From: Alphaproteobacteria bacterium
Lineage (GTDB): Bacteria; Pseudomonadota; Alphaproteobacteria; Micropepsales; Micropepsaceae
Reading direction: 5' to 3'
NCBI GenBank assembly: GCA_025350465.1
Contig: JANXXU010000013.1
Coordinates: forward strand, 44,182 to 108,181
Length of the DNA stretch: 64,000 bases
Notes under the pieces: model-generated
Database searches by the model: none
What the model was told of the DNA's origin: nothing
The model's input: only the letters and a program-made list of their open reading frames with translations
Shown: in pieces, positions 42,305 through 46,292 of the stretch
Position numbering within the stretch: position 1 is the stretch's first letter
How the letters are laid out: each line of letters opens with the position of its first letter
Position numbers and translations under genes: made by a program

Positions 42305-42748
42305 TCAGTTGGGCCGCGTCTGAAACAGCGCCTCGGCCTGGTTCAGCAAATCGTCGATTTCGACCGGCTTGGCGATGAACCCGTCGGCGTGAAGATCTGC
42401 CACTGCGCGGCTTGCATCGTCCTTATCGGACGCCGTGAAGATCAGCATGCAAGTGTTCTTATTCTTTGCCGATGCGCGCGCGGCGTGACCGACTTCGAGG
42501 CCGTCGACGCCCGGCATGAAAAGGTCGAGCAAGAGAAGGTCGTAGACATTGCGCTCGATCAGCGTGATCGCTTCGGCGCCGGTGGGCGTGGAGTCGACCT
42601 TCGCGCCCGCCATCAAAAAGGCTTCGACCGCGACGTCGAGATTGATCAGGTTGTCGTCGACGACAAGAACCTTCTTGCCGAAAAGCGCGGTGTTGGGCGA
42701 CGCAGAGCCATTTGGTGCGTCAGGTATATTGGCCAGCGTCTTCCGCAT
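42305..42748 (-). CDS. Single-domain response regulator
   Basis: 147 residues: a 20-residue N-terminal tail and one receiver domain. VLVVDDNLINLDVAVEAFLMAG (acidic pair), phosphoacceptor Asp in LLLLDLFMPGVDGLEVG, and the Lys in FIAKPVEIDDLLNQ. No output domain, so probably a phosphorelay intermediate. Divergent from the hybrid kinase at 43111, its likely partner. Confidence 0.93.
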   Translation of the reverse strand: MRKTLANIPDAPNGSASPNTALFGKKVLVVDDNLINLDVAVEAFLMAGAKVDSTPTGAEAITLIERNVYDLLLLDLFMPGVDGLEVGHAARASAKNKNTCMLIFTASDKDDASRAVADLHADGFIAKPVEIDDLLNQAEALFQTRPN

Positions 42749-43110
42749 ATGGGGTTTCTCCGCGCTGTCGGCAAACTACACGTGAGCGCATTTATCGGCC
42801 GTAAACGAAAACGGACGGCAAACGAGTGCTCGGCGCACGCCTGTCATCCGAGCCAGGCATATAGTGAAAGCGCGATTAGCGGCTTAGGCGGCATTGTCGC
42901 TTTGCTGATGTTCGAGCCGATTTGACTGTCAAATTTAGGAAATGTTCGCCTTTCCCGCCAATGATAGACACGGACTGCACGCTGCGCACGCCCGACAGAG
43001 GCGAACGGGGCTCTTGGAATGATCAGTGCGAGCAAATTGCATCTTGTCGCCACTGCGGTATTTGCCGCGCTGGAGCCGGGCATCGACCATTCTCAGCTTG
43101 GCCGCGGCGC

Positions 43111-45048
43111 ATGATCGCGACTTCCAAGGGAGCCTATGAGCAGGCCCGTGAACTTGCGTTGGTCGCCGAGACGACGAGCGATCTGATCACCATCGCCGAT
43201 AAAAACTGGCACATCATTTGGGTCAATCCTGCGTTTGAACGTCTTACGGGATACTCGGCGAGCGAGGTCGTGGGACGCAAATCCTCAGATTTTGGTCTCG
43301 ATCAACTGAGGACGCCGGACGAGTTGAGCGTGATGCTCAAGGCGCTGAACAGCGGCGAAGCAGTCCGCGACGCTTTTGAGTTCACCTCGGCGTCTGGGCA
43401 AAAATACGATCTGGAAGGAATGATCCAACCGGTCAAGGACGATCGCGGCGAGATCTGCAAATTCATAGCCACGCACCGCGATATCACGCAACGCGTCGCC
43501 GTTCTCGCTCGTCTGCGCGAGAGCGAGGCGCGCTACCAGCTTGCGGTTCGGGGTTCGTCCGACGGAATTTGGGACTGGAACATCGCCGAGCAACGGACGT
43601 TCTTTGCGCCGCGGGTGCGTGAGTTGCTGGGCTATGGTCCGGAAGACCAGTTTTCCGACACGATGGAAACCTTTGAAAACGCCCTCCACCCCGACGACAA
43701 GAAACGCGCCCTCGCCGTCATGCGCGCGCATATCAAGCATCGCGAGCTCTATGATATCGACCATCGTCTACGCCTGAAGGACGGTTCCTATCGCTGGTTC
43801 CGTGCTCGCGCTCAAGCGGTATGGGATCGGCGCGGTCGCGCCATCCGAATGGCCGGCAGCATCAGCGACATCGACGATTTGATCCGCAGCCAGAAGCAGG
43901 CAGAGGAAGCAAATCGTCTGAAATCCGAATTCTTGGCCAATATGAGCCATGAAATTCGCACGCCGCTCAACGGCGTGATGGGCATGAGCCAACTTCTCAT
44001 GCGGACACCGCTCGACGACAAGCAGCAAAGATTTGCCAGCACGATCTTATCAGCCTCGAAGTCGCTGCTGGGGCTCATCAACGACATCCTTGATCTGTCC
44101 AAGATCGAATCTGGAATGATGAAACTCGACTGCGCTTGGTTCGACATGACGGAAATCGTCGAGCGGGCGATAACCACGGTCGAGGGCGTCGCCACGTTGA
44201 AAAAGACGCGCGTGCACTGCACGATCGCGCCGGAGTGCCTCGGCTCGTCGAAGGGCGACGGCGAGCGCATCGTTCAGATCTTAGTCAATCTGCTGGGTAA
44301 CGCCCTCAAGTTCACCAACGAGGGCGAAGTGTGGGTGCGGGTCGAATCGGTCGAGGGCGGCTGGACCAAATTCCTCGTCAGCGACTCCGGACCGGGCATT
44401 AAGTCAGAGCAATTGGCGCTGATTTTCGAACGCTTCCGTCAAGTCGACGGCTCAAGCACGCGCAAGTACGGCGGCACCGGCCTCGGTTTGGCAATCTGCA
44501 AAGAACTCGTGACGTTGATGAACGGCAAAATCGGCGTCGAGAGCACGTTGGGCGCAGGCGCGACCTTCTGGCTCACGCTGCCGCTCGAGCGGCAAGCCTT
44601 GGCCATGACGGAAACCTCGGAGGCGAATTCAGAACAGCGCGACGAGGCCTCGTTCCAGGGGAGGCGCGCACTCGTCGCCGAAGACAACATGACAAATCAA
44701 GCCGTCATCACCGAGGCGTTGAAACTGCATGGTTTTTCGGTTTGTCTCGTCGAGAACGGTCTTCAAGCGTTGCGGCGGCTTGAAGCAGAACCGTTCGATG
44801 TCGTTTTCATGGATATTCAGATGCCGGTGATGAATGGTGACGTGGCGCTGCAGAAAATTCGGAACTCCGGTGCGCCATTTGCAGACATTCCTATCGTGGT
44901 CGTTACGGCAAGCGCGATGAAGGGCATGGAGGAAAAATTCTTGGATCTTGGGGCCGATGCCTACATTTCTAAGCCCGTCGATCTCAAGGAATTGAGCGTC
45001 GCGATCGCCAAAGTCATGAGCGGCGTCGCCGCCAGGCGCGCGGCCTAG
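43111..45048 (+). CDS. PAS-PAS hybrid histidine kinase with C-terminal receiver
   Basis: 645 residues from [24 protein letters not shown]. Two PAS domains (about 15-130: [31 protein letters not shown]; about 145-265: [26 protein letters not shown], with [10 protein letters not shown]), HisKA ([23 protein letters not shown]), HATPase ([36 protein letters not shown]) and a receiver ([13 protein letters not shown], phosphoacceptor in [16 protein letters not shown]). I prefer the 43111 ATG because the upstream residues of the ORF-track version are Cys-rich and unprotein-like. Confidence 0.9.
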
Positions 45049-45059
45049 AGGCACGAACG

Positions 45060-46292
45060 ATGTCGACATTTTCGCTGACGAGAACGCAAGAGCAACGGCT
45101 GAAGCAGGCGTTGCTCGGGGACGAGAAACTCGGCGCCTCCGAGTTGCGCGTCATCAACACGGACGTTTACAAAGAGCGCCTTGGAGCGGAATGGTTCAAG
45201 TATAAGAGCATCATCAACGCTTATGCGATCCAAGCGATCAAAGCCAATTTAGACGCTGACGATATCTTCGTGCCGACCAAGCATGGCTTCGCCGTCTTCT
45301 TTTTCTCCTCCAGCGAGGAGAAAGTCGCGGCTACCTCCGAAACAATGGCGCAGGAGCTTTCGCGGCTGCTCGGCGGAGAGAAGGTCTTCCAAGATCCGCC
45401 GGTGAGCTGCTCGGCGCGCGCTATGACGCGTGCGGACCTCGTCAACGAAATCGACATCGATCTTGGCTTGGGTCTGCAGCGCGCACCGCGAGCTGTCGTC
45501 GCCGAGCCCATTTTGAGGATCGATACGCCAACGCCTGCAGCAAGCGGGCGGGCGGCATCCGGCTATTGGCCATTGTGGCACGCCAAGGCCCAACGCGTGG
45601 TCGGTTGTATCAGCGAGCCGGAGAATGCCGGACCGCTGATGAACGACCCAAAATACTATGAAAGCGCCATTCAACATTTGCGCTACGACCTCGACACGTT
45701 CAACCTCGTTCTGCGCGACGTCTACAAGCTCTACAAGAGCGGTGAGACCGCGGTCATCATGTTCTCGATCAATTTCAAGAGCTTCTGCGCGCCGGAATTC
45801 AACAAGGAGTATTTGCTGGCGCTGCGTCAAACACCGGCGAATCTCTTGCCCTATCTGTTGCCGCGATTCGTCCGCATGCCGCCCGGCGCACCCAACACGT
45901 TGATCGCGACCAAGGCGCAGGCGCTATCGTCCATCTTCAAAAAGGTCGCGTTGCAAGCGCCGCTTGAGGGCGATCTGCGACGTTTCGAATATACGGCCTG
46001 CACCGTTCTCGCGACCTCGGTCAAAGAAGCAACGCGCGTCTCTCGACTCCCCGCCGTTGCGCAGCAGAGCATTGCGCCGCTTCTGGCGGGGTTCGTTCAG
46101 ACAGCCAAGAGCATGCGTTACGGTGCGCTGATTACCGGCGTCGACACTCAAGAAGCATTCGGATCGGCGCTGCAAGCCAAAGCCGACTTCGTCTCGGGCG
46201 CGGTCGTTGGTCCGTTGGCGCACCTCCCCGGCTCGCAATTCCATTTGACCGCGGACGAGATTCGCGCGACGCCACGTCAGAAGGCGGGTTGA
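45060..46292 (+). CDS. Hypothetical protein, possible degenerate GGDEF-EAL output protein
   Basis: 410 residues, 11 bp after the hybrid kinase. No catalytic motif of a cyclic-di-GMP enzyme survives, but spacing resembles them: DDIFVPTKHGFAVFFFSSSEEKVAATSETMAQEL sits where a GGDEF RxGGDEF strand would be, and TAVIMFSINFKSFCAPEFNKEYL plus ALITGVDTQEAFGSALQAKADFVSGAVVGPLAHL resemble the beta-strands and C-terminus of an EAL domain. The middle (FCAPEF to NTLIATKAQ) has no EAL or DDFG motif. If right, it would bind or relay rather than hydrolyse. Alternative: unrelated fold. Confidence 0.5.
   Translation: MSTFSLTRTQEQRLKQALLGDEKLGASELRVINTDVYKERLGAEWFKYKSIINAYAIQAIKANLDADDIFVPTKHGFAVFFFSSSEEKVAATSETMAQELSRLLGGEKVFQDPPVSCSARAMTRADLVNEIDIDLGLGLQRAPRAVVAEPILRIDTPTPAASGRAASGYWPLWHAKAQRVVGCISEPENAGPLMNDPKYYESAIQHLRYDLDTFNLVLRDVYKLYKSGETAVIMFSINFKSFCAPEFNKEYLLALRQTPANLLPYLLPRFVRMPPGAPNTLIATKAQALSSIFKKVALQAPLEGDLRRFEYTACTVLATSVKEATRVSRLPAVAQQSIAPLLAGFVQTAKSMRYGALITGVDTQEAFGSALQAKADFVSGAVVGPLAHLPGSQFHLTADEIRATPRQKAG

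Follow-up and report, generated by a model that had tools for sequence, protein, structure and literature searches.

A degenerate GGDEF-EAL protein conserved with a hybrid histidine kinase and a single-domain receiver in Micropepsaceae

Introduction

FimX of Pseudomonas and Xanthomonas is a tandem GGDEF-EAL protein in which both catalytic sites are dead, and it carries REC and PAS domains in the same chain. LapD, a HAMP-GGDEF-EAL inside-out receptor, is likewise a dead tandem protein, and the Arg that follows its EAL motif (R450) lies at the center of the c-di-GMP site (PMC3032553). The two are examples of dead tandem proteins in which c-di-GMP binding persists. YdiV (STM1344) is, to our knowledge, devoid of a GGDEF domain and encoded outside any two-component cassette. 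This EAL-like anti-FlhD4C2 factor lacks 8 of 10 conserved residues and works through protein contact, with no binding of c-di-GMP (PMC3510510).

The destination of the signals carried by hybrid kinases and single-domain receivers is a common open question in Alphaproteobacteria. Within this class, PopA of Caulobacter, which binds c-di-GMP, is tied to receiver domains and is not known to carry an EAL domain, and TipF of Caulobacter is membrane anchored. PopA is a GGDEF c-di-GMP adaptor protein, and TipF is an EAL protein that serves as a c-di-GMP receptor and recruiter (PMC10212136).

Here we describe a 410-residue degenerate GGDEF-EAL protein encoded within a 64,000-nucleotide stretch of a Micropepsaceae genome (GCA_025350465.1, contig JANXXU010000013.1, positions 44,182–108,181, forward strand), referred to below as the window. 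Like FimX, it is a tandem GGDEF-EAL protein with both catalytic sites dead as judged from its residues, but it has lost more of the pocket residues than FimX, and it is a bare GGDEF-EAL protein whose kinase and receiver are separate neighboring genes rather than parts of one chain. It shares the dead tandem with LapD but has no HAMP or periplasmic domain, and the Arg corresponding to R450, which LapD keeps, is missing. The likeness to YdiV, an EAL barrel that has likewise lost most of the conserved residues, is one of features. The link of PopA to receiver domains resembles the receiver-fused relatives described below. The same genome encodes a separate protein (locus L090, 1012–2301) with an N-terminal hydrophobic stretch, a coiled-coil-like region and an EAL domain, which is TipF-like by eye. 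Degenerate GGDEF-EAL proteins are an already known kind; what is new here is the three-gene cassette, the class-wide family, the receiver fusions and a candidate working surface.

Results

A gene under purifying selection with a tandem GGDEF-EAL fold

The open reading frame at 45060–46292 (+ strand, ATG start) lies in a 4.06-Mb genome assembled into 52 contigs, which groups with genomes that have Rhizomicrobium among their named counterparts. Differences from a 71%-identical ortholog are distributed over the three codon positions as 88/61/212, mostly at position 3, and the resulting dN/dS of ∼0.14 places the gene under selection. The reading frame is thus a real gene under purifying selection, and the same ratio rules out a decaying pseudogene.

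When used as a single query, the 410-residue protein matched no Pfam or NCBIfam model above cut-off and nothing relevant in PDB sequences or NCBIfam. The sole Pfam match was to EAL over residues 341–384 (E=0.054, 13.3 bits versus a gathering cut-off of 31.3). A 31-member family profile searched against PDB sequences matched FimX of P. aeruginosa (4j40) with E=2.9e-11, continuously over profile positions 69–402 (334 positions), and other solved EAL and GGDEF domains were matched at the expected ends, including the cyclases 3ign and 4zve. Alignment by hhalign to a GGDEF-EAL protein of the same genome gave a probability of 96.9% (E=1.6e-10) with the motifs in register. An AlphaFold2 model built on eight sequences, the closer orthologs not among them, was of moderate quality (pLDDT 71.7, pTM 0.55), with an unreliable domain arrangement; all of its 50 best PDB matches in Foldseek were EAL or GGDEF-EAL proteins (E down to 1.4e-10), with LapD (3pjw) among the top matches of the whole model.

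The degenerate EAL domain, a TIM barrel, spans residues 166–390 (45555–46229, +), supported by Foldseek, the FimX profile match and the sub-threshold Pfam match; weak EAL matches were also obtained for 6 of the first 18 family members, the best at 4e-4. The degenerate GGDEF domain spans residues 28–105 (45141–45374, +). Its hairpin, VPTKHG-FAVF, aligns in register with RLGSDEFAVL in hhalign, and AlphaFold2 predicts a beta-alpha-beta-beta-alpha order for the domain. Modeled alone, the N-terminal domain gave a best Foldseek E value of 0.065, with none below 0.001, in a list made up mostly of GGDEF domains. A distant family member (L065) has a Pfam GGDEF match above cut-off (32.5 bits) at the position that corresponds to this domain. 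The three peptides that the initial annotation had taken as GGDEF and EAL landmarks, on which it proposed a comparison with these folds, were located at residues 67–82, 232–242 and 360–389. Profile, profile–profile and structure comparisons bear that assignment out, with no unrelated fold appearing in any of them, and we conclude that the protein has a tandem GGDEF-EAL fold.

Loss of catalytic residues and a conserved stretch at the former active site

The segment equivalent to the GGDEF signature RLGSDEF reads PTKHG-F in the window protein, which lacks both GG(D/E)EF and the metal-binding acidic residues; the first metal-binding Asp is aligned with N33. Within the EAL domain, substitutions have removed the EAL Glu, the catalytic Lys, both Asp residues of DDFG, the Gln of QG and the Glu that precedes GV. 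These losses extend through the family: none of the 31 members has the EAL Glu, the catalytic Lys or the second Asp of DDFG, and 3 of 31 have the Gln of QG. From the catalytic set E, N, DD, K, E, Q, the clade formed by the window protein and its two orthologs retains only N238, the Asn of SxN; the Gly of QG is present in 31 of 31 members. The earlier statement that all catalytic motifs are absent is therefore nearly exact, the exceptions being this Asn in the three orthologs and the QG glycine. By these residue losses the 410-residue protein is predicted to be a catalytically dead GGDEF-EAL pseudoenzyme.

The window protein has the dead GGDEF-EAL tandem of a FimX/LapD-type receptor but not the retained pocket Arg: the position after EAL is unconserved across the family, and residue 188 is a Glu in the window protein. 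The residues that would form a c-di-GMP pocket are lost, which favors protein interaction over nucleotide binding, and as read from these residues c-di-GMP binding would be absent.

Conservation is concentrated elsewhere in the barrel. Three-way identity among the three orthologs is 66% over residues 232–290 (45753–45929, +), compared with 40% over the whole EAL-like domain and 14% in the linker. This most conserved stretch includes a motif of the family's own, P-x-G-x-P-x-x-R/L, which occupies the strand that normally carries ELTE; P274, G276 and P278 are conserved in 87% of the 31 members. From its position and conservation, the stretch is likely to be a working surface at the mouth of the former active site.

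A three-gene cassette with a hybrid kinase and a single-domain receiver

A PAS-PAS hybrid histidine kinase with the Pfam architecture PAS-PAS-HisKA-HATPase-receiver is encoded immediately upstream on the + strand, at 43111–45048. Its longest frame runs from 42922, but translation probably starts at the ATG at 43111 rather than at the listed TTG at 42922, because conservation begins there. The catalytic motifs of the kinase are intact by sequence, as is the receiver Asp in MDIQMP. The kinase stop codon ends at 45048, leaving the 11-bp gap to the downstream ATG that had first been noted (45049–45059, +). The gap contains a GAGG-type ribosome-binding site and measures ∼10–25 bp in the two genomes with orthologs (G088 and G093), where strand and order are identical; the arrangement suggests a single transcript. 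The third gene of the cassette, at 42305–42748 on the − strand, is divergent and encodes a single-domain response regulator (Pfam Response_reg, 73 bits).

Close orthologs of the 410-residue protein were found in just two other genomes, both of the same genus, with 71% and 47% identity. Kinase orthologs (E < 1e-150) occur in 3 of 96 Micropepsaceae genomes, and these are exactly the genomes with pseudo-GGDEF-EAL orthologs, so the proposed co-occurrence with the kinase held without exception, although the three occurrences fall within one genus and are not independent of each other. The receiver ortholog sits in the same place in the cassette in each of these genomes. Flanking genes are also common to two cassette-bearing genomes. 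In G093, the three cassette genes are the only ones in common over a 14.6-kb stretch, so the unit has been kept intact in a different neighborhood. With three occurrences in one genus, and G093 being 82% complete, this amounts to strong linkage and not to a large sample. A functional linkage of the pseudo-GGDEF-EAL protein and the kinase is strongly supported. The link to the two-component system is a genetic one; unlike some of its relatives, the window protein carries no receiver domain of its own in Pfam searches.

A wider pseudo-GGDEF-EAL family in Alphaproteobacteria

Distant relatives with ∼20% identity to the 410-residue protein are present in many other genomes. With this protein as the sole query, a scan of named genomes returned no match, and a four-sequence alignment of distant relatives retrieved seven loci. 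With the first profile, 101 of 387 alphaproteobacterial genomes gave matches at E 0.001 or better, and 52 (∼13%) gave matches of at least 100 bits; the latter count is the more cautious one, since ordinary GGDEF or EAL domains may account for weaker matches. A phylum-wide search with a larger profile matched 299 of 398 genomes. Matches outside the class reached at most 51 bits over partial stretches, and we rejected them as evidence of family spread since they represent ordinary GGDEF or EAL domains.

In three family members the degenerate GGDEF-EAL module is preceded by a fused N-terminal receiver, matched by Pfam at >100 bits (L130, 6704–8503 and 8528–10420; L132, 7520–9262), and in a fourth (L135, 7906–9909) a PAS domain takes the place of the receiver. 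A plasmid search with a receiver-fused member as query returned receivers only. A kinase or receiver gene lies within 1 kb upstream in 23% of ∼60 members (19% when the three cassettes are left out), compared with 0–2% beyond 4 kb, in a count that ignores kinship. Many distant members have no nearby kinase.

Other arrangements were seen among the distant relatives. Adjacent pairs of family genes occur in L100 (6148–7695 and 7902–9443) and L124 (5986–7386 and 7435–8766), and as the facing pair of L130; such pairs may form heterodimers. The related genomes of L150, L151 and L154 have two same-strand receiver genes and a kinase within ∼2 kb upstream of the family gene, which looks like a second, different conserved cassette. 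Two named relatives from Azospirillum, on plasmid pAB510c of Azospirillum sp. B510 (L158, 4929–6218) and plasmid AZO_p3 of A. lipoferum 4B (L159, 4929–6221), are both annotated 'hypothetical protein'. Directly 3′ of each are hydrogenase maturation genes (hyaD/hybD, hypC, hybE, hypA) and a sigma-54 regulator, and it could be asked whether these members take part in hydrogenase regulation. A survey of the literature, largely outside subscription journals, found no description of the pseudo-GGDEF-EAL family.

Discussion

We propose, with a probability of about 0.6, that the 410-residue protein acts as a non-enzymatic relay: a GGDEF-EAL protein with dead catalytic sites, dedicated to a two-component cassette whose three genes encode the divergent single-domain receiver, the PAS-PAS hybrid kinase and the pseudo-GGDEF-EAL protein itself. 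The protein would have kept both folds while losing diguanylate cyclase and phosphodiesterase chemistry. The PAS domains would sense a cytoplasmic signal, the kinase would phosphorylate its own receiver, the separate single-domain one or both, and the phosphorylation state would alter contact with the pseudo-GGDEF-EAL protein. Through the conserved surface at what was once the EAL mouth (residues 232–290), the latter may then bind and control a target protein, much as YdiV does. The initial annotation had suggested a nucleotide-binding or protein-interaction output for the kinase; an output role of one of these kinds fits the evidence, and we consider it most likely that the relay works by protein contact, with ligand binding possible too. 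In this model we infer the direct contact between the partners, the direction of signaling, the target and independence from c-di-GMP. Counting against a relay is that the path of the phosphate is not visible, the 410-residue protein having no HPt or other phospho-acceptor.

The alternative that survives best, though we regard it as doubtful, is that the protein is a receptor for c-di-GMP or another nucleotide like FimX and LapD, in which a remodeled pocket integrates the kinase module with the messenger. Among solved structures FimX is the nearest relative by profile, the strands that surround the former pocket carry the most conserved stretch, and N238 and the QG glycine are retained. The genome also has a c-di-GMP network by sequence, with matches above cut-off to seven GGDEF, four EAL and three PilZ domains. 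Against these points stands the absence not only of the Arg after EAL but also of the residues at the DD, K, E and Q positions, and YdiV, with 8 of 10 conserved residues missing, is unable to bind c-di-GMP (PMC3510510).

The operon-like gene order and the strict co-occurrence would fit equally well if the protein were not an output but fed back on the kinase or the single-domain receiver, whether as an inhibitor, a phosphatase cofactor or a polar localizer, and Pfam detects no DNA-binding or other known effector domain in it. We find this unlikely, since the receiver-fused relatives put these domains downstream of phosphorylation, the usual place of outputs.

GGDEF and EAL domains dimerize, and the protein might instead tune an active GGDEF or EAL enzyme by pairing with it. 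The presence in the genome of GGDEF and EAL proteins above cut-off, the adjacent gene pairs among distant family members and the dimerization of the LapD EAL domain (PMC3032553) are compatible with such heterodimers, but the conserved three-gene cassette encodes no active enzyme, which makes this a rather improbable account of the locus. Finally, the sub-threshold Pfam EAL match might by itself point to a remnant in decay or to the chance resemblance of an unrelated protein, but either is scarcely credible in view of purifying selection, the profile match to FimX and the conservation of the cassette.

The relay reading can be extended, more tentatively and at somewhat below even odds, from the window protein to its relatives. 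The alphaproteobacterial pseudo-GGDEF-EAL family might have left c-di-GMP metabolism altogether and now serve two-component systems as a general output module that acts by protein contact. Its members would be connected through operon linkage, through a single-domain receiver encoded nearby or through a receiver fused to them. The Pfam GGDEF and EAL models are the usual means of counting c-di-GMP networks, and the family falls mostly below their cut-offs. The cassette, compact and limited to three genes, is a small unit that lends itself to testing. If the family does serve as a dead-enzyme output of two-component systems, it would explain where the signals of some hybrid kinases and single-domain receivers go.
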